NCBI GenBank assembly: GCA_012519415.1
Contig: JAAYQG010000027.1
Span: forward strand, 1 to 45,258
DNA: 45,258 nucleotides
Direction: 5' to 3'
Source of the DNA: Treponema sp.
Lineage (GTDB): Bacteria; Spirochaetota; Spirochaetia; Treponematales; Treponemataceae
Part shown: positions 3,365-45,220 of the stretch, piece after piece
Numbering within the stretch: the stretch's first letter is position 1
Layout: each line of letters starts with the position of its first letter
The notes under the pieces: model-generated
What the model was told of the DNA's origin: nothing
Seen by the model: the letters and a program-made list of their open reading frames with translations, nothing else
The model's database searches: none
Translations under genes and position numbers: made by a program

Positions 3365-3549
3365 GTTCTGTATCAAAAAAAGCTGCTGCGAAAGCAGAGC
3401 GTTCAGCGCGTGTCGCAGAATTACAAACAAAAATTCACGATAAGGCTTACATAGACGGTGCTATTCAACGTATTGCGCAGGTTTTGAGCAACAGTCTCGT
3501 GGTAGACAAAAAAATGACACAAGGACATAGTTTTTATGGCACAAGATAA
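3361..3549 (+). CDS. Small hypothetical protein, coupled to yraN
   Basis: A 62-residue reading frame whose ATG overlaps the yraN stop (ATGA, 3361-3364) and whose end overlaps the next gene by 14 bases. The first 20 residues are basic and alanine-rich (KKAAAKAERSARVAELQ) and probably helical. The second half (AYIDGAIQRIAQVLSNSLV) looks like an amphipathic helix. No signal peptide or known motif is visible. The tight overlaps on both sides argue that it is a real gene; a function cannot be given. Small basic helical proteins of this kind may bind RNA or a protein partner, but nothing here proves it. Confidence 0.65.
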   Translation: MSSVSKKAAAKAERSARVAELQTKIHDKAYIDGAIQRIAQVLSNSLVVDKKMTQGHSFYGTR

Positions 3550-4018
3550 TTCTAACAATCATTATGGAAAGTCATATTCCGGACGGCATTTTAACCAAAA
3601 CAAAAAAAAAGTAAAAGAACAAGGTCATTTTAACAATAAACGCGATAATAACAAAAATAACGAACAAAAATCTTACAAAACATTAAAAGATTCTTCGATT
3701 GAGTCGCCAAAACTTGATACGCCAAACTGTGCATTTTGTGGTGAACCTATTTATGATTTGCCTTCTGCAATGTGCGATAAAGATACACTTTCTCCAATTC
3801 ATTTTGATTGTGTTTTGCAAAGACTTAATGATTCAGAAAATCTCAAAGAAAATGAAAAAATCACTTATATAGGGCAGGGAAGATTTGCAGTTGCATATTT
3901 TGAAAATCCACATGATTTACGTCATTTCAAAATACAGAGAATAATTGAATGGGAAGATCAAGAAAAAAAAGCCGAATGGAGAGATGAAATCGCTTTGAAA
4001 TTTAGCCGGACTAAATAA
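3536..4018 (+). CDS. Hypothetical protein with a Cys/His zinc-finger-like centre
   Basis: A 160-residue protein. Residues 1-55 are a low-complexity Asn/Lys/Gln/His-rich segment, basic and probably disordered. Residues 65-92 form a compact Cys/His cluster (C65-x2-C68, C80, H89, C92) that could bind zinc. The last 65 residues carry a mixed domain (ITYIGQGRFAVAYFENP, then RHFKIQRIIEWEDQEKKAEWRDEI). A basic tail next to a zinc cluster would fit an RNA- or ribosome-associated role, which is inference. It starts 14 bases inside the preceding gene and is the last gene of the rplS cluster; hairpin repeats begin 3 bases after its stop. Confidence 0.7.
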   Translation: MAQDNSNNHYGKSYSGRHFNQNKKKVKEQGHFNNKRDNNKNNEQKSYKTLKDSSIESPKLDTPNCAFCGEPIYDLPSAMCDKDTLSPIHFDCVLQRLNDSENLKENEKITYIGQGRFAVAYFENPHDLRHFKIQRIIEWEDQEKKAEWRDEIALKFSRTK

Positions 4019-4020
4019 TG

Positions 4021-4372
4021 GCGTTTTGCGTTTGGGATTGAGCTACAAATTTGGGATTAATCTAGCAAAACGCCAAGTTTTTGCGGTGCAAAAACTTGAG
4101 GCTTATGTGTTGGTTGGGTTTAATCTAAAATTTAGGGATTAATCTAGCAAAACGCTGCTTATGTGTTGGCTGGGTTTAATCTAAAATTTGGGGACTAATC
4201 TAGCAAAACGCCGAAGTTGCACTTTAATCAGACGTCCTTGTCTGATTAAAGTGCCGAGTTTTGCTTCACAAAACTCGTCGCTTGTGCACTGCGTCCTTGC
4301 AGTGCGGTTTTGTGTCGGGAGGGTTTTGCGTTTGGGATTGAGCTACAATTTGGGATTAATCTAGCAAAACCC
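4021..4372. repeat. Intergenic hairpin-repeat cluster 1
   Basis: Fills the gap between the zinc-finger gene and tRNA-Leu. Type A units: 4021-4073 (arms GCGTTTTGC / GCAAAACGC) and 4321-4372 (arms GGGTTTTGC / GCAAAACCC), both with the interior that reads TAGATTAATCCC on the minus strand. Two further A-like copies without a left arm form a 55-base direct repeat, 4101-4155 and 4157-4211. Type B short hairpins: 4074-4098 (11-bp stem, loop GGT), 4219-4254 (15-bp stem, loop GTCCTT), 4255-4277 (9-bp stem, loop CTTCA), 4286-4305 (7-bp stem, loop GTCCTT). No U-run follows any stem, so they are not ordinary terminators. 4373-4449 holds nothing I recognise. Confidence 0.9.
4219..4254. repeat. 15-bp perfect hairpin, loop GTCCTT
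   Basis: Arms GCACTTTAATCAGAC and GTCTGATTAAAGTGC pair over all 15 positions. A related hairpin at 18074-18108 differs at stem positions 4 and 11 in both arms, so pairing is preserved. Confidence 0.9.
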
Positions 4373-5896: not shown

Positions 5897-8728
5897 TTAT
5901 TTTAATAATTGAACAATTTCATTTGATCGATTAAATTTTTTTGCTATATCTGCGGCAGTTTCACCTTTTTTATTTTTAGCATTTTTATTTGCATCATATT
6001 GCATTAAAACAGATAATACATTTGAATTTGCGCATTGTGCAGCATAGTGAAGAACACTGTTTCCATTTGAATCTGTTTTGTTTTGATTTGCTTTAAGAAT
6101 ATCAATAAGAACAGATGGATTGTCTGAAATTGAAGTTGTAATTGTATTTTTACCTGTAGAATCAAGTGTAAATACATCTGCTCCGCAAGCAAGCATATAT
6201 TGAACAACATCATTCATACCTGCAGAAACAGCAAGTTGAATTGGTGTTTTTCCAAGATTGTTTTTTGCATTCAGATTATAGCCGCGTTTTATAAGAAATT
6301 CAAAAACTGAAATTGGTGCATTTTCAATTACAGCTATGTGAATCGGAGAGTTATTATTAATATCTACAATGTTGAGATTTGTGCCGAGAGTTGTTTGAAG
6401 CAGTTTTTCGTCTTTTCTGATTATAATTCCAAACGGAGTTTTCCCGTGCAAATCTGTAGAAAGAGGACTTGTTCCTGTTTTTTGCATTATACTAATAAGT
6501 TCTTCAAGTTCTGTTGTTGTAGCCTCATGAAAAGCATTTCTTCCGTAAATATCAACGATTGTAGGGTCGGCACCTTTTTGCAAAAGAATTGTTGCAGCTA
6601 CAGGATTTTTACATTGGATTGCATCCATTAAAACGCTTTTTCCTATTACATCTTGAGAATTTACATTTGCGCCTTTTGAAATAAGCTGTTTCATTATTTC
6701 AATGCGATTTTGTCTAGCTGCTTCTGCCAAAGGTGTTTTTCCTGCTTGATTTTTGGCATTGACATCATATCCGGCTGCAAGAAGTTTTGTACAACTTTTA
6801 TTAGCTGCCCATCTTGCACAAGAATGAAGAGCTGTATTTCCTTGATTATCTGTTATATTTTTGATTGCACCGGCTTTGATAAGTTGCTGAATTCCTTGAT
6901 AGTTGTCAGATTTTGTGGCACTAAAAAGTGCAGTTTCTCCATAACAGTTTGCAACATCAACTGCTATGCCAGCATCTAAAAGATAGCGCACGCAGCCTGA
7001 TGTTGCCTTATGTTCCAGTGCAACATGCAAAGGTGTGTTTCCATAAGGATCAGTAACTTTAAGATTAGATGCGTTTACAAGAATTTTTAGAATATTTCCA
7101 TCTCTAAAGCAACGTGTAAGCGGAGTTTTGCCATTTATATCTGATGCAAAAATATCAGCACCATGTGTCGAATATATTTTGATATGTTCTATATTTTTTG
7201 AAGAAACAGCTTCTGCAAGGGGAGTTAATCCTTTTTGATTTTTTGCATTAATTTTTGCTCCTGCATTTATAAGGCGTATAACGTGTCCGCTTGACATTGA
7301 ACCCATTGTAGCAATATGAAGTCCATTATCTCCAAAAATATCTTGAACAGATGCATCTGCATTATTTTCCAGCAACAGTGAATATATTTCATCTTGAGCT
7401 TCTTTTGGTGCTGTAATTAACAGCGGCGTTTTTAGCGTTGAATCACATGAATTAACATCTGCACCTTTTTGAATTAACAGTTTTGCATGGTTTATTCTGC
7501 CATAACGGACTGCAAGATGAAGAGGTGTTGCGCCTGAAATATCTTGTGCATCAAGAAGAGATCCGCAAGATATAAGATATTCAGTAATACCATAATGATT
7601 TTTTACAATTGAAAGATGAAGTGCTGTTTGGTTATCTTCAAAAATTTGACGAGCATTTCTAGTTTTTACTGTATTTTCAAAATATTCAAAATCTCCTCTA
7701 ATCGGAGAAACATCGGCAAGAATAAGAGCTGCGGCAATTGTTGCACTTATATTGCTTTGTGTATTTAAATATGCTAATGCAAGCGGTGTTAAGCCGTTGT
7801 TATCTCTTATGTCAAGATTAAGTTCTCGCTCGATACATAAAGTTATTCCGTCAATATCATCTTTTTTGACAAAATGGTGAACTATATTTTGACCGCGAAT
7901 ATCTCTAATTTCTCCCACCGGCTGAATAATAAATACAGGATAAAAACTTTTATCTTTTTCTATTCCTGCAAAAAAGGCCATTTGATCTTCTGTATTTTTT
8001 GCAAAATAATTTGCACCGCCATCAATTAAAGCTTGAGCGGCTGCAACAGAAAAATAGCGAATAGCTGTGAAAATAGGTGTATCGCCAAGATTGTTTTTTT
8101 GTTCAGTATCTGCGCCTCTTGCAATAAGCCATGTTACAAGTTCAGCATTATTTGCTTGTGCGGCTGCATGAAGAGAACTGTACCCGTTTGAATCTGTTTG
8201 ATTATATGTTTTTGTTCGTTGAAGTTCTGTTTTTGCTTCTTCTATTTTACCATTAAGAATTAATGAAATTACATTCCAGCTACTTGAAAGTGCTTTCGAA
8301 TTCTGTTGGTTTATTTCTTCTTTTGTATTTGGCGTAGGTTCTAATTGCAAGTATAAATCTTCATTAGAATTTGAAGATTCATCATCATAGTAAAAATCGT
8401 CCTCGTCTTCTTCATAATAAAAATCATCATCGTTAGAAGAGTCATCAGATGAAAAATTATCTGGAATTTGCGTATCTGTAGTTTTTTTTGCAATGGGTGT
8501 TCCATGCAAAGTTGGTGCAGGGTGACTATCATCTTCTTTTGGCGGCGGCGGAGCAGGTTCTTCCGGAACTTTTTCGGGAACATCTCCTATTCCTATAATT
8601 CCACTTGCAACAGCTGCTATTGCTGTAGGTGCTAAAACTCCTGCAACTGCGGCCGAAACACAAGATGAAAACATTGAAATAATAAGAACTGAAGTAGTTA
8701 TTATGATAAAAAATCGGCGTTTTTTCAT
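5897..8728 (-). CDS. Large ankyrin-repeat lipoprotein
   Basis: A 943-residue predicted lipoprotein. A basic, hydrophobic signal ends in the lipobox-like MFSSC with Cys23. Residues about 55-135 are proline-rich then strongly acidic (runs of D, E, Y and S), probably a flexible spacer from the membrane. From about residue 175 to the end there are roughly 22 ankyrin repeats of about 33 residues, recognisable by the GxTPLHxA and LLxxGADxNAKD patterns; some are degenerate. Ankyrin arrays bind proteins, so an exported or surface scaffold is likely. Convergent with the YerC-like gene and alone in its transcript. AAGGAT lies 9 bases before the ATG. Treponemes are known to carry ankyrin proteins; the partner here is unknown. 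Confidence 0.87.
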   Translation of the reverse strand: MKKRRFFIIITTSVLIISMFSSCVSAAVAGVLAPTAIAAVASGIIGIGDVPEKVPEEPAPPPPKEDDSHPAPTLHGTPIAKKTTDTQIPDNFSSDDSSNDDDFYYEEDEDDFYYDDESSNSNEDLYLQLEPTPNTKEEINQQNSKALSSSWNVISLILNGKIEEAKTELQRTKTYNQTDSNGYSSLHAAAQANNAELVTWLIARGADTEQKNNLGDTPIFTAIRYFSVAAAQALIDGGANYFAKNTEDQMAFFAGIEKDKSFYPVFIIQPVGEIRDIRGQNIVHHFVKKDDIDGITLCIERELNLDIRDNNGLTPLALAYLNTQSNISATIAAALILADVSPIRGDFEYFENTVKTRNARQIFEDNQTALHLSIVKNHYGITEYLISCGSLLDAQDISGATPLHLAVRYGRINHAKLLIQKGADVNSCDSTLKTPLLITAPKEAQDEIYSLLLENNADASVQDIFGDNGLHIATMGSMSSGHVIRLINAGAKINAKNQKGLTPLAEAVSSKNIEHIKIYSTHGADIFASDINGKTPLTRCFRDGNILKILVNASNLKVTDPYGNTPLHVALEHKATSGCVRYLLDAGIAVDVANCYGETALFSATKSDNYQGIQQLIKAGAIKNITDNQGNTALHSCARWAANKSCTKLLAAGYDVNAKNQAGKTPLAEAARQNRIEIMKQLISKGANVNSQDVIGKSVLMDAIQCKNPVAATILLQKGADPTIVDIYGRNAFHEATTTELEELISIMQKTGTSPLSTDLHGKTPFGIIIRKDEKLLQTTLGTNLNIVDINNNSPIHIAVIENAPISVFEFLIKRGYNLNAKNNLGKTPIQLAVSAGMNDVVQYMLACGADVFTLDSTGKNTITTSISDNPSVLIDILKANQNKTDSNGNSVLHYAAQCANSNVLSVLMQYDANKNAKNKKGETAADIAKKFNRSNEIVQLLK

Positions 8729-15306: not shown

Positions 15307-17694
15307 ATGTCTGAACCAAATATTGTTACTGTCGAACAGACTCTTTCAAATAAGCTTTGCATTATTCCATTAACCGGACGTCCGATTTTTCCGGGCATTT
15401 TTACACCGTTGATGATTAATTCGCCGGATGATACAAATGTAGTTGAAAAAGCTACCGAAACAGACGGACTTATCGGCGTTGTTATGACAAAAAATGATGT
15501 TGACTTTCCGACTGCTGAAGATTTGCATTCTGTAGGAACTGCGGCTAGAATTGTAAAAAAAATCAATCTGCCGGACGGCGGAGTAAATATTTTTATTTCG
15601 ACGATAAAACGTTTTAGAATTCGTAAAGTTCTTTCTGAAAAAGCACCTATTGTTGTAATTGTTGATTATCTTGAAGATGAAGAAGATGATACTTTTGAAG
15701 TAAAAGCATTGACACGTGCTTTACTAAGTGAAATGAAAGAAATTTCTGAAAACAATCCGCTTTTTTCAGAAGAAATGAGATTGAATATCGTAAACATAGA
15801 TTATCCGGGTAAAGTTGCGGACTTTATTGCTTCTATTTTGAATGTTGAAAAAGATGACCAGCAACGCATTCTTGAAATACAAAACGTAAGACAAAGAATG
15901 GAGCAAGTGCTTGTTTTCATCAAAAAAGAGCAGGAACTTCTTCGTATTCAAAAGCGAATTCAAAATGAAATAAATGACCGCATTGAAAAAAGCCAAAGAG
16001 ATTATTTTCTTCGAGAAGAACTCAAAGCAATTAAAGAAGAGCTTGGAATGGCTGTTGATGCGAAAAGCTCAGATTATCAAAAATTCAAAGAAAAACTTGA
16101 TTCATTTAAGTTCGAAGGTGAAATAAAAGAAACTGTTGATTCTGAACTTGAAAAATTTGCGCTGATGGATGCTAATTCAAGTGAATATATGATTTCTCGT
16201 AATTATCTTGAAACGATAGCAGCATTGCCTTGGGGTGAACCGGAGGTGGAAGAATACGATTTGATTAAAGCTAAGAAAATTCTTGAAGGAGATCATTACG
16301 GCTTAGAAGATGTTAAAAAACGAATAATTGAATATCTTGCTGTGCGTCGTCTCAAAAAAGATTCTAAAGGCTCTATTATTCTTCTTGTTGGACCTCCAGG
16401 CGTTGGAAAAACAAGTGTTGGACTTTCGATTGCAAATGCAATGAACAAGCCTTTTTTTCGCTTTTCTGTTGGAGGAATGCGTGATGAAGCTGAAATAAAA
16501 GGACATCGACGCACGTATATTGGTGCAATGCCTGGTAAGATTATTCAAGGATTAAAGATTTCAAAATCTAAAAGCCCTGTTTTTCTTATTGATGAAATTG
16601 ACAAAATGGGTTCGTCTTATCAAGGAGATCCTGCTTCTGCTTTGCTTGAAGTGCTTGACCCTGAACAAAACGTAGCTTTTAGAGATCATTATCTTGATTT
16701 GCCATTTGATGTTTCAAATATTTTGTTTATTTTGACTGCAAATTCATTCGATTCAATTCCTGAACCTTTGCTTGATCGCGCTGAAATTATCAGACTTTCC
16801 GGTTATATTGACCAAGAAAAAGTTGAAATTGCTAAGAAATATTTGATTCCGCGCAGCCTTGAAAAGAATGGTCTTAAAAAAGGGCAGATTAAATATTCAA
16901 AAGAAATGCTACTTCTTATTGCAAACAGCTATGCAAGGGAATCTGGCGTACGTAACTTTGAAAAAAATCTTGATAAAATTCACCGAAAAATTGTAACTGA
17001 ATTTTTGACAAGCGAAGAATATCTTTCTGCGGAAAATGATGCAGCAAGAAATAGTATTGTTACAGAAAAAAAAGTGATAGAAGCAAAAGATGTAAAAACA
17101 TATCTTGGAAATCCACTCTTTGATGGTGAAGAAATCAAAAAAGCAGATTCATCAGGGACAGCAATAGGTCTTGCATGGACAAGCATGGGCGGCGATACGT
17201 TAGCTATTGAAGCCGTTTCACTTGCAGGCAAAGAAGGCTTTAAGCTGACAGGTCAAATGGGCGATGTAATGAAAGAATCTGCTGAAATTGCTTTAAGCTG
17301 GGTGCGTAGCTATGTTATAGATGAACAATTATGTAGCCCCGATTGGTTTGAAAAAAACACAATACATTTACATATTCCAGAAGGTGCAACCCCTAAAGAC
17401 GGACCATCTGCTGGTATAACAATGGCAACAGCTTTGCTTTCTCTGATAAAAGATAAATCAATAAAACAAAACCTTGCAATGACAGGTGAATTATCTTTAA
17501 CAGGACAAGTTCTATCAATTGGAGGACTTAAAGAAAAAACAGTTGCAGCAAAACGCAACAAAATCAAACATATTATTATTCCCAAACAGAATGTACGCGA
17601 TTTAGATGATATTCCTGATCATGTAAAAAAAGGATTGATTTTTCACCCTGTTTCTAAAATGAAAGAAGTAGTTGAGCTTGTGTTTGCCAAATAA
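15307..17694 (+). CDS. lon: ATP-dependent Lon protease
   Basis: A 795-residue LonA-type protease of typical length. N-terminal substrate-binding domain about residues 1-215 (IIPLTGRPIFPGIFTPL), a coiled helical stretch (QRDYFLREELKAIKEELG), AAA+ module with Walker A GPPGVGKT at 362-369 and Walker B VFLIDEIDKMG, and a C-terminal serine/lysine-dyad domain with Ser701 in KDGPSAG and Lys744 in GGLKEKT. It degrades misfolded and regulatory proteins in the cytosol. GAGG at 15299-15302 precedes the ATG. Single-gene unit between the PfkB kinase and a hairpin-repeat cluster. Confidence 0.98.
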   Translation: MSEPNIVTVEQTLSNKLCIIPLTGRPIFPGIFTPLMINSPDDTNVVEKATETDGLIGVVMTKNDVDFPTAEDLHSVGTAARIVKKINLPDGGVNIFISTIKRFRIRKVLSEKAPIVVIVDYLEDEEDDTFEVKALTRALLSEMKEISENNPLFSEEMRLNIVNIDYPGKVADFIASILNVEKDDQQRILEIQNVRQRMEQVLVFIKKEQELLRIQKRIQNEINDRIEKSQRDYFLREELKAIKEELGMAVDAKSSDYQKFKEKLDSFKFEGEIKETVDSELEKFALMDANSSEYMISRNYLETIAALPWGEPEVEEYDLIKAKKILEGDHYGLEDVKKRIIEYLAVRRLKKDSKGSIILLVGPPGVGKTSVGLSIANAMNKPFFRFSVGGMRDEAEIKGHRRTYIGAMPGKIIQGLKISKSKSPVFLIDEIDKMGSSYQGDPASALLEVLDPEQNVAFRDHYLDLPFDVSNILFILTANSFDSIPEPLLDRAEIIRLSGYIDQEKVEIAKKYLIPRSLEKNGLKKGQIKYSKEMLLLIANSYARESGVRNFEKNLDKIHRKIVTEFLTSEEYLSAENDAARNSIVTEKKVIEAKDVKTYLGNPLFDGEEIKKADSSGTAIGLAWTSMGGDTLAIEAVSLAGKEGFKLTGQMGDVMKESAEIALSWVRSYVIDEQLCSPDWFEKNTIHLHIPEGATPKDGPSAGITMATALLSLIKDKSIKQNLAMTGELSLTGQVLSIGGLKEKTVAAKRNKIKHIIIPKQNVRDLDDIPDHVKKGLIFHPVSKMKEVVELVFAK

Positions 17695-17739
17695 TAAGCT
17701 TGTTATAAATCGAAGAACAATGCACACAGTCTTACACGC

Positions 17740-18325
17740 ACAATGCGCTTCCGCAGATTAATCCCGAATTTGCAAAACCAATATAATGCGAAACCGCCAC
17801 AAAAACTCATAGGTTGCCATTTCGCTAACATAAACCCAAAATTTTGGATTAATCCCAAGTGAACGCCCAAGCCTTCAAGTTTTTGCCTCGCAAAATTATG
17901 CCGTTTCGCTAGATTAATCTCAAAATTGTAGATAAAACCCAAGTGAACGCCCAAGCCTTCAAGTTTTCGTCCACGAAAACTTGGCGTTTCGCTAACATAA
18001 ACCCAAAATTTTAGATTAATCCCCAAGCGAAACGCACAGTGCACAAGCAACGAGTTTTGTTTCGCAAAACTCGGCAGTTTAATAAGACAGGACGTCTTAT
18101 TAAACTGCAAACTTTCCGGTTTCGCTATGCCAATCCCAAATTTATATAACAACCCAAACGCAAATCTCCCAAAGTTTTCGTCCACGAAAACTTTCCGGTT
18201 TCGCTATGCCAATCCCAAATTTATATAACAACCCAAACGCAAATCTCCCAAAGTTTTCGTCCACGAAAACTTTCCGGTTTCGCTATGCCCAATCCCAAAT
18301 TTATATAACAACCCAAAGCGAAACC
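17740..18325. repeat. Intergenic hairpin-repeat cluster 2 (largest)
   Basis: Occupies most of the 684-base gap between lon and glpK. In order: a decayed type A unit (about 17740-17795); A-like copies near 17820-17865 and 17902-17950; a type B hairpin CAAGTTTTCG / CGAAAACTTG (17960-17983, loop TCCA); a full A unit 17984-18035 (arms GCGTTTCGC / GCGAAACGC); hairpin 18051-18073 (CGAGTTTTG stem); 15-bp hairpin 18074-18108 (loop AGGAC); then a 79-base tandem repeat starting 18112, 18191 and 18270, each with an A-like part and, between units, a 10-bp hairpin AAAGTTTTCG / CGAAAACTTT. The last A unit has paired arms GGTTTCGC / GCGAAACC (18276-18283 with 18318-18325). Reading frames here are by-products of the repeats. 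Confidence 0.88.
18112..18325. repeat. 79-base tandem repeat, 2.7 copies
   Basis: Units start at 18112, 18191 and 18270 and are almost identical. The first two end their A part in GCAAATC, which spoils pairing with GGTTTCGC, whereas the third ends in GCGAAACC and pairs over 8 bp. The near identity points to recent local duplication. Confidence 0.88.
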
Positions 18326-18378
18326 ATGATATACTTAACCCATCTTTTCTATAAATATCACATTCAAGCGGAGAAAAA

Positions 18379-19905
18379 ATGGAAAAAAAATTTATCATCG
18401 CATTAGATCAAGGCACAACATCTTCAAGAGCTATTATTTATAATAGAAATGCACAGCCGCTTTTTGCTAGAAGTCGTGAATTTACTCAGTATTATCCAAA
18501 ACCCGGTTGGGTTGAGCATGATGCGGAAGAACTTTTTCAAAGTCAGCTTGATGTTTTAAAAGAAATAGTTGAACTTACAGCGCAAGATAACGAATGTTCG
18601 GTTGAAGAAATTGCAAACAATATTGCTGCTTTGGGTATAACAAATCAAAGAGAAAGTATTGTTCTTTGGGAAAAATCAAGCGGGAAGCCTGTTTATCATG
18701 CGATTGTTTGGCAATGCCGACGAACAAGTGCGATTTGCGATAAACTTATTGCAGAACAAAAGACGGAATTTTTTCGAAGCAAAACAGGACTTATAATAGA
18801 CGCATATTTTTCAGCAACTAAGATTGTATGGCTTTTAGAAAATTTGGAAGGTCTTAGAAAAAGAGCCGAAAATGCAGAAATTCTTGCAGGAACAATAGAT
18901 ACATGGCTTATATGGAAACTTTCAGGCGGAAAAACTCATGTAACTGATGTAACAAATGCAAGTCGTACTATGCTTTTTAACATTCATACTATTCAGTGGG
19001 ACGAAGAAATCTTAAAGCTTTTGAATATTCCACGCTGTATTTTGCCGGAAGTAAAAGATTCAAGTGCAATTTATTGCAAAACTTCAAAATCCGTATGCGG
19101 TTTTGAAGTTCCAATATCGTCTGCCATCGGCGATCAACAGGCAGCACTTTATGGACAAGCTTGCTTTGAAGAAGGGACTGCCAAAAATACTTATGGAACT
19201 GGCTGCTTCCTTCTATTAAATACAGGTGAAAAACCTATAGTTTCAAAACATAATCTTCTTACCACAATCGCACTTGGATTTAATGGAAAAATAACCTATG
19301 CACTAGAAGGAAGTGTTTTTATGGGTGGTGCTATTATAAAATGGCTCAGAGATGAACTTGAACTTATTACAACAGCACATGAATGTGATATGCTTGCAGA
19401 ATCAGTTGATGATGCAAACGGTTCATATCTTGTTCCAGCTTTTACCGGGCTTGCTTCTCCATATTGGGATATGTATGCAAGGGGTACAATTGTAGGACTA
19501 ACACGCGGTGTAAAAAAAGCCCATATTTGCCGTGCCGCACTTGAGGGAATTGCTTTTCAAGTAAAAGATGTAATTGACTGCATGATAAAAGATTTAGGCA
19601 AATCATTGGAATATTTAAAAGTTGACGGCGGCGCATCAGTTAGCAATGTTATGATGCAGTTTCAAGCCGATTTGTTAAAAACGCCTGTAATAAGACCTCA
19701 GAATATTGAAACAACCGCATTAGGTGCTGCTTTTCTTGCAGGACTGGCAGTTGGATTTTGGAAAAGTACGGAAGAACTTAAAGCATGTTGGAAAGCACAA
19801 AAAATTTTTGAACCTGTAATGTCTGATAAAAAACGTGAAGAATCCTGCAACGGCTGGAAAAAAGCAGTTTCTCGTGCTCTAGATTGGGAAGAGGTAAAAC
19901 AATGA
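18379..19905 (+). CDS. glpK: Glycerol kinase
   Basis: A 508-residue FGGY-family kinase of normal GlpK length. Key features: ALDQGTTSSRAIIY at the N-terminal phosphate-binding loop, PGWVEHDAEEL, ALGITNQRESIVLWEKSSGK, AIVWQCRRT, TDVTNASRTMLFNI, GDQQAALYGQACFEEGTAKN and the adenosine-binding LKVDGGAS. It makes sn-glycerol-3-phosphate from glycerol and ATP in the cytosol. GGAG at about 18370 precedes the ATG. First gene of a four-gene operon; its stop overlaps the dehydrogenase start (ATGA). No glycerol facilitator gene is present. Repeat cluster 2 ends 53 bases before its ATG, so its promoter must lie in or beside the repeats. Confidence 0.97.
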   Translation: MEKKFIIALDQGTTSSRAIIYNRNAQPLFARSREFTQYYPKPGWVEHDAEELFQSQLDVLKEIVELTAQDNECSVEEIANNIAALGITNQRESIVLWEKSSGKPVYHAIVWQCRRTSAICDKLIAEQKTEFFRSKTGLIIDAYFSATKIVWLLENLEGLRKRAENAEILAGTIDTWLIWKLSGGKTHVTDVTNASRTMLFNIHTIQWDEEILKLLNIPRCILPEVKDSSAIYCKTSKSVCGFEVPISSAIGDQQAALYGQACFEEGTAKNTYGTGCFLLLNTGEKPIVSKHNLLTTIALGFNGKITYALEGSVFMGGAIIKWLRDELELITTAHECDMLAESVDDANGSYLVPAFTGLASPYWDMYARGTIVGLTRGVKKAHICRAALEGIAFQVKDVIDCMIKDLGKSLEYLKVDGGASVSNVMMQFQADLLKTPVIRPQNIETTALGAAFLAGLAVGFWKSTEELKACWKAQKIFEPVMSDKKREESCNGWKKAVSRALDWEEVKQ

Positions 19906-26345: not shown

Positions 26346-26397
26346 GGGGTTCGCTAGATTAATCCAAAATTTGTAATTCCAACAAATGCGAAACCCC
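26346..26397. repeat. Single type A hairpin-repeat unit
   Basis: Arms GGGGTTCGC (26346-26354) and GCGAAACCCC (26388-26397) pair with one bulged A, enclosing TAGATTAATCC and a degenerate second half. It is the only isolated A unit of the window. It lies in the 364-base gap (26133-26496) upstream of the VIT/vWA gene; the rest of that gap holds no gene. Confidence 0.8.
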
Positions 26398-31764: not shown

Positions 31765-31805
31765 GCAAACAGCCACCCAAATCATCAACGCAAACGCAAA
31801 GCCAT

Positions 31806-32137
31806 GTAGTTTGCGCTCGCCGCAAACTACGGGTTTTGCTAGATTAATCCCAAATCTGTAGCACCAACCCAAACGCAAAACCCGCCTTCAAGTTTTTGCT
31901 CCGCAAAACTTGGCGTTTCGCCAGATTAATCCCTAAATTTTAGATTAAACCCCTGTGAACGCCCAAGCCTTCAAGTTTTTGCTCCGCAAAAACTTGGCGT
32001 TTCGCTAGATTAGTCCCTAAATTTTAGATTAAACCCCAAGCGAAACGCAAAGCCCACCTTCAAGTTTTTGCTCCGCAAAAACTTGGCGTTTCGCTAGATT
32101 AGTCCCCAAATTTTAGATTAAACCCCAAGCGAAACGC
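31806..32137. repeat. Intergenic hairpin-repeat cluster 4
   Basis: The most regular cluster. In order: hairpin 31806-31830 (GTAGTTTGCG stem, loop CTCGC); A unit 31831-31883 (GGGTTTTGC / GCAAAACCC); hairpin 31889-31912; A unit 31912-31963 with a shortened right arm (GGCGTT / AACGCC); hairpin 31972-31996 (CAAGTTTTTGC stem, loop TCC); A unit 31997-32048 (GCGTTTCGC / GCGAAACGC); hairpin 32061-32085, identical to the previous one; A unit 32086-32137 with the same arms. The last two A+B pairs form an 89-base tandem repeat. It fills the 408-base gap upstream of cysteine desulfurase and ends 7 bases before the stop of the next gene. Confidence 0.92.
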
Positions 32138-32143
32138 AAACGC

Positions 32144-32749
32144 CTAGTATGTATTTTCATCCATTGATTCGAAATCTTTTATTACACCTAACAATCTGGT
32201 AAGTTCGCGGTTTATTGTTTTTTCGTAATCTAATTTACCAGAAGCAATTCTTTCTCGTTCATCTTCCCAGTTTTGCAAATCTGTTATAAAAAGGAATTTG
32301 AATTTTCCCTGATTTGCTTTTTCAGCCCAAAGTTTTGCTTCTTTCCAATAATGAAGACCTGCACGATAAGCTGTTTCTGCGGTTCTCAAGTCATTTAAAT
32401 ATTGCTCTTTCCACGGAGCATCATAAAAGTACGCTACGTTTTTATCCCAGTATCTTCCCAATCTCATATGTTGTTCGATTAGTTTTAGATTTATATGCAT
32501 CATAAAAAGATAGCGATATTTTTCCCAATCGGTTTTGTTATTGATTTTTGCCATTGCGTACTGAGGGTTACAAAAATCCGCCGCTGCGGCTCGTTCAAGC
32601 CAATAGATGTTTTCGATAACATCATCGGGGTACTGCTGATAATGAATGTGATAAAGCTTATAGTATTGTTCTTTATACGAGATAATATATGCCGAAACAG
32701 GCAAAATCATTATAAATATTATAAGCAAAATTAAAGCAATCTTTTTCAC
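32144..32749 (-). CDS. Secreted or membrane-anchored hypothetical protein
   Basis: A 201-residue protein with an N-terminal hydrophobic signal (IALILLIIFIMILPVSAYII), probably an anchor since no clear cleavage site follows. The rest is strongly helical, rich in Trp, Tyr and charged residues, with TPR-like spacing (ENIYWLERAAAADFCNPQYA; TAETAYRAGLHYWKEAKLW). I do not recognise a family. The start is GTG (32749), overlapping the tmk stop as GTGA, so it is co-translated with tmk. Its role could be in the envelope; nothing more can be said. Confidence 0.75.
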   Translation of the reverse strand: MKKIALILLIIFIMILPVSAYIISYKEQYYKLYHIHYQQYPDDVIENIYWLERAAAADFCNPQYAMAKINNKTDWEKYRYLFMMHINLKLIEQHMRLGRYWDKNVAYFYDAPWKEQYLNDLRTAETAYRAGLHYWKEAKLWAEKANQGKFKFLFITDLQNWEDERERIASGKLDYEKTINRELTRLLGVIKDFESMDENTY

Positions 32750-45142: not shown

Positions 45143-45220
45143 GGGTTTTGCGTTTGGGTTGGAGCTATAAGTTTGGGATTAATCTGGCAAAACCCGTAGT
45201 TTGCGGCGAGCGCAAACTAC
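45143..45220. repeat. Intergenic hairpin-repeat unit 5
   Basis: A unit 45143-45195 (arms GGGTTTTGC / GCAAAACCC) followed by hairpin 45196-45220 (GTAGTTTGCG / CGCAAACTAC, loop GCGAG). It is the inverted counterpart of 31806-31883, with the same two modules in mirrored order. The last 38 bases of the window hold a partial hairpin and nothing else. Confidence 0.88.

Follow-up and report, generated by a model that had tools for sequence, protein, structure and literature searches.

Polar arrays of a mosaic palindromic repeat family at gene edges in an uncultured rumen spirochaete

Background

What are the hairpins that recur between genes in this spirochaete, and how did they come to occupy the sites where we find them? 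The window, that is, the whole 45,258-nucleotide stretch of DNA analyzed here (contig C122), is part of a 2.45-Mb MAG (G000), 98% complete, of an uncultured treponeme-like rumen spirochaete. Its nearest Lon proteins belong to the rumen MAGs RGIG8276 (90%) and Spiro_07 (89%). An initial annotation had reported two alternating types of hairpin module, A and B, at five intergenic places of the window and in both orientations, and had proposed a treponeme-specific mobile or RNA-level element.

Results and discussion

Hairpin arrays in the window and in its genome

Direct reading of all five places confirms the hairpin modules, their intergenic position and their two orientations (Table 1). Type A, announced as about 50 bases with a 9-bp closing stem and a conserved interior, was found as modules of 50-54 nt, in which a 9-bp stem, GCGTTTYGC/GCRAAACGC or GGGTTTTGC/GCAAAACCC, closes a loop of sequence TAGATTAATCCC-AAATTT-TAGNNNNNNCCC. 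The range of 20-36 bases given for type B had to be narrowed: B modules are real hairpins of 24-25 nt (CAAGTTTTTGCnnnGCAAAAACTTG or GTAGTTTGCGGCGAGCGCAAACTAC), but the 35-36-nt hairpins and their 23-nt neighbors form a separate three-hairpin block that resembles the Rfam family TD-2 (RF03162).

Table 1. Hairpin features of the window
Feature	Position	Strand	Details
Array 1	4021-4372	-	A 4021-4073, 4107-4155, 4163-4211, 4321-4372; B 4074-4098; head A begins 3 nt past the stop codon of ORF 3536-4018
TD-2-like three-hairpin block, array 1	4217-4304	-	Perfect hairpins 4219-4254, 4255-4277; 41.9 bits against TD-2, whose gathering score is 48.7; genome-wide E 5.9e-5
Array 2	17740-18326	+	Flanked by lon (15307-17694) and glpK (18379-19905); head ends 4 nt upstream of the glpK -10 box TATACT
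A modules, array 2	17821-17863 (partial), 17901-17950, 17984-18035, 18118-18168, 18197-18247, 18275-18326	+
B modules, array 2	17960-17983, 18171-18194, 18250-18273	+
TD-2-like block, array 2	18027-18109	+	Hairpins 18051-18073, 18074-18108; 28.3 bits against TD-2, under the gathering score, E 0.017-0.047
Single A, without B	26346-26397	+	Orthologous interval in G006 without A
Array 3	31806-32137	+	A 31831-31883, 31913-31962, 31997-32048, 32086-32137; the stop codon of ORF 32144-32749 (-) is 7 nt away from the end of the head
B modules, array 3	31806-31830 (GTAG type), 31889-31912, 31972-31996, 32061-32085	+
Array 4	45143-45220	-	A 45143-45195; GTAG-type B 45196-45220

The five sites are part of a much larger set. 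We counted 264 A modules in about 90 arrays of G000 (307 kb of array regions), a figure that includes a few modules twice owing to an apparently mirrored contig. BLAST with one A+B unit returns 137 matches in this genome and the covariance-model scan called for by the initial annotation at least 152 matches to A, which bears out its suggestion of a dispersed modular family as opposed to a local duplication. The predicted folding of positions 31800-32140 is far stronger than that of shuffled sequences (z -10.5 on the forward and -7.4 on the reverse strand). These hairpin repeats are neither chance nor local duplication. They also affect annotation and assembly, as several contig ends of the MAG fall inside arrays. 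An 8.4-kb or so stretch of contig C84 (L051) looks like a near-perfect inverted duplication centered at about position 4100, with array copies double-counted, and is probably an assembly chimera. At 17703-18185 of the window, the reverse strand holds a 160-aa ORF built of array sequence; nine such ORFs of G000 fall into one cluster, and they are probably spurious. Another reverse-strand ORF (5897-8728, 943 aa) contains internal DNA repeats and is possibly ankyrin-like.

Alternation of A and B is frequent rather than strict: of 169 A-to-A junctions in G000, a B occupies 105 and a TD-2-like hairpin 3, and the other 61 are bare. Comparison of filled and empty sites within the genome shows that a given junction may or may not contain B; it revealed no clean insertion of A.

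A conserved loop under changing paired stems

The A loop, of about 32 nt, is conserved and contains two direct repeats; its closing stem measures 8-9 bp. At least seven stem sequences close this loop, each as a matched pair: CTTTTCGC, CGTTTTGC, CGTTTCGC, GGGTTTGC, GGGGTTGC and CATTTTGC surround the same loop in the related genome G006, and G000 has the further type GGTTTTGC. As this list was picked by perfect stems, pairing was checked separately with an HMM of the loop only. Seven or more contiguous flanking pairs were observed at 33 of 39 HMM sites in G006 and 24 of 61 in G000, against 0.7-0.9% of random positions, and several different stems occur among the paired flanks. Pair 7 of our first A alignment is U-A in 18 sequences and C-G in 13, with no one-sided change, a change that the selecting pattern permitted. 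Such paired changes say that the hairpin matters or gets repaired as a hairpin; they do not discriminate RNA from DNA. A modules end in GCG/CGC, and the minority GTAG-type B carries its GTAG within the stem.

Arrays are polar and end at expression signals

Within arrays, A modules are co-oriented, about five clusters of G000 deviating from this rule. The arrays are polar: their intact end, or head, stops at a -35 box or a stop codon, and their tails do not. A perfect 9/9 stem is found in 59 of 70 head A modules compared to 23 of 92 inner units (p 2e-14), 18 of 56 tails and none of 500 random positions. With genes called as simple ORFs and not from curated annotation, heads face gene 5' ends in 55 cases and 3' ends in 31. 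Of the 31 3'-facing heads, 22 reach into the end of the ORF or come within 20 nt of its stop codon, versus 4 of 34 tails. For promoters, we considered 5'-facing heads separated from the start codon by 60 nt or more, since shorter distances partly force promoter proximity: 16 of these 25 heads have the -35 box of the best promoter at a distance of 10 nt or less (tails, 2/27), a number reached in none of 500 shufflings (mean 4.3, maximum 11). A short replicate in G006, where arrays are more composite, yielded single cases that agree with this head position.

The orientation of heads bears on the RNA-level half of the initial proposal, according to which transcribed arrays would be processed into, or act as, RNA hairpins. 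Strong predicted folding on both strands fits this idea, as do the TD-2-like blocks inside arrays, TD-2 being filed as an sRNA in Rfam. However, heads toward 5' ends outnumber those toward 3' ends, and many end upstream of the promoter and hence outside the transcript of that gene; in addition, G000, G004 and G006 lack a reverse transcriptase. We regard an RNA-level element as very unlikely.

Tandem B-A' units are present, and 18 of 68 inner units have their nearest neighbor in the same array. Compared with inner units, heads show no measurably greater closeness to the copies of other arrays, and the idea that heads are the youngest units is thus unsupported.

Distribution and empty sites

We scanned genomes with a broader A model, R2, scoring the best candidates (at most 150) in each. 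Matches number at least 138 in G000, 147 in G004, 148 in G006, 119 in G003 and 110 in G001, so that five of the eight genus members are carriers; G007 has one copy and G002 and G005 have none. Outside the genus, 266 genomes gave two weak single matches. Lon identity to the protein of the window is 89-100% in G000, G001, G004 and G006 and 78-80% in G002, G005 and G007 (G003 yielded no full-length Lon and was left out of this split). The concentration of A in genomes of high Lon identity indicates that the family expanded in one subclade. In the genomes scanned, it is limited to this one subclade of one uncultured genus, for which 'treponeme-specific' is too broad a term.

Comparisons between species reveal empty and altered sites. 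The approximately 590-bp lon-glpK array corresponds in G006 to a short interval with a conserved promoter, and in G004 to a different palindromic repeat (L268, TGTCATTCCGAAC...TTCAGCATGAC), apparently within a terminator. At L091, the array begins at a stop codon, and the corresponding empty site in G006 holds an intrinsic terminator. Cluster 22 carries arrays in both species, which belong to different subfamilies; each time, the last codons of the ORF and its stop codon lie in the element. Other palindromic families (AACGTCATNATGACGTT, GAAGCAATCTGCTC...GATTGCTTC) are abundant beside A arrays in G006 (L195, L215, L226, L218).

Empty sites lend indirect support to the mobile half of the initial proposal. 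They also weigh on a host-maintained cis element, in which the head A would be a protein-binding or insulating hairpin under selection and the rest of the array debris. Head stems that are much better kept than inner stems, and a head edge fixed at the -35 box or stop codon, fit such a function. Yet A is missing from close congeners whose genomes are nearly complete, the same intergenic sites are empty in G006, itself a carrier, and a single regulatory site would not predict tandem decayed copies. This explanation is therefore unlikely in our view.

Alternatively, the repeats may lack dedicated mobility, recombination and gene conversion spreading the copies and template-switch repair restoring perfect stems. 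This would account for compensatory stems without single-side intermediates, for the tandem units and same-array neighbors, and for our failure to find a mobilizing enzyme or target duplication (see below). Still, it leaves unexplained the roughly 90 dispersed sites, those occupied here and empty in a relative, and the position of heads; we think it somewhat less probable than a host element.

Search for a mover

A scan for Y1_Tnp, the transposase domain expected of REP elements mobilized by RAYT, found none in G000, G001, G003 and G006; within the genus it is present only in G004 and in the non-carrier G002. The initial annotation had suggested such a linked gene, and its absence from G000 speaks against the connection. 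RVT_1 is likewise absent from the genus genomes, G000, G004 and G006 included, save one copy in G001, which sets A apart from retroelements. Genes beside arrays show no recurring family, the recurrences being spurious array-made ORFs. We detected no target-site duplication, a difference from classical MITEs moved by a DDE transposase: the shared flank of 70 arrays, whose tail boundary is uncertain, averages 4.94 nt versus 4.87 nt in the control.

Since neither a mover gene nor a target duplication was found, the mechanism is an inference. The reading we favor, at slightly better than even, sees the repeats as a new mosaic palindromic family, non-autonomous and with the A hairpin as core unit. 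They are probably mobile, and insert or persist at the margins of expression signals. We infer that the moving form of A is a DNA hairpin, that a trans-acting enzyme moves it, and that insertion or trimming, not host function, explains where heads lie. A, with its conserved loop and a stem of any sequence that pairs, would probably be recognized as an extruded hairpin and then copied or moved in trans. Insertion, or trimming, would run as far as the -35 box of one neighboring gene or the stop codon of the other; behind the head, more units would form by local duplication and then decay, with TD-2-like blocks and B hairpins traveling in the same array. Covariation can also arise through template-switch repair of imperfect palindromes, which weighs against this mobile reading. 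More tentatively, and with considerable doubt, we may hypothesize a hairpin replicator moved by an enzyme of a class new to palindromic repeats, one that recognizes the fixed loop in any paired stem and inserts beside a stop codon or a -35 box, so that polar arrays grow from there.

Relation to known repeat families

REP elements and their BIME composites are palindromic, exceed 100 copies per genome and form mosaic composite arrays (PMC2817692, PMC3733652); REPs are intergenic, lie near the 3' ends of ORFs and in some cases supply the stop codon (PMC3733652). A arrays share all these traits, which are the case for REPs mobilized by a RAYT. Against it, besides the lack of Y1_Tnp in main carriers, A and the common B have no unpaired GTAG/CGTC tag, the A loop of about 32 nt contrasts with REP loops of 2-20 nt (PMC2817692, PMC3733652), and A modules are co-oriented whereas BIME units are regularly spaced and alternate in orientation. 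Furthermore, REPs occur mainly between same-direction and convergent ORFs (PMC3733652), whereas many A arrays are in divergent intergenic regions (20 divergent, 33 same-direction and 12 convergent pairs among arrays with both flanks known). With neither tag nor RAYT-type transposase found in the host genome, membership is largely refuted, and we give it hardly any credence.

BOX elements of Streptococcus pneumoniae are modular, of the form boxA-boxB(n)-boxC. They are high-copy, interspersed, confined to few related species, rich in secondary structure and have been judged parasitic (PMC3049150). A arrays resemble them in modularity, copy number, dispersal, host range and structure, but the sequences are unrelated as far as known, and A is set apart by description: a fixed loop in a variable paired stem, and a head adjoining a -35 box or stop codon. 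The conservation of the loop under changing paired stems and the polar array ending at a -35 box or stop codon are the two unusual features of the family, of which our literature search found no description. Families of palindromic repeats that have no known mover are common and lack an explanation. Here carriers and non-carriers, paired-stem change and a sharp promoter/stop-codon rule come together, so that the mode of spread and the effect on neighboring genes are directly testable.

TD-1, TD-2 and the array hairpins

Whether the arrays match a described family has a divided answer. The blocks inside them resemble TD-2, which with TD-1 (RF03155) forms Rfam clan CL00124 and was reportedly defined with it by Weinberg in 2017; no Rfam family reaches its gathering score on A, tRNAs being the only matches that do so within the window. 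Sub-threshold matches of A-B stretches to eukaryotic miRNA and snoRNA families look like chance. G000 holds 14 TD-2 matches, several of them inside arrays and one above gathering score. The top copy (contig C142, 53 bits) is outside these arrays; other array blocks score up to 48.4. The central TD hairpin and B have in common an NNAGTTT...AAACTNN foot, a sequence resemblance that may be a lead.

TD-1, unlike A, is widespread in Treponemataceae (34 of 119 genomes). In G021, a Shine-Dalgarno-like GGAG closes 27 of 30 copies (L284, L292-L320) and precedes a start codon by 2-11 nt, most copies have GGAG at the upstream end as well, and the shared flank is 7.0 nt versus 5.3 in the control, with a maximum of 14 nt (L307). 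TD-1 may be a mobile hairpin that inserts at ribosome-binding sites with target duplication.
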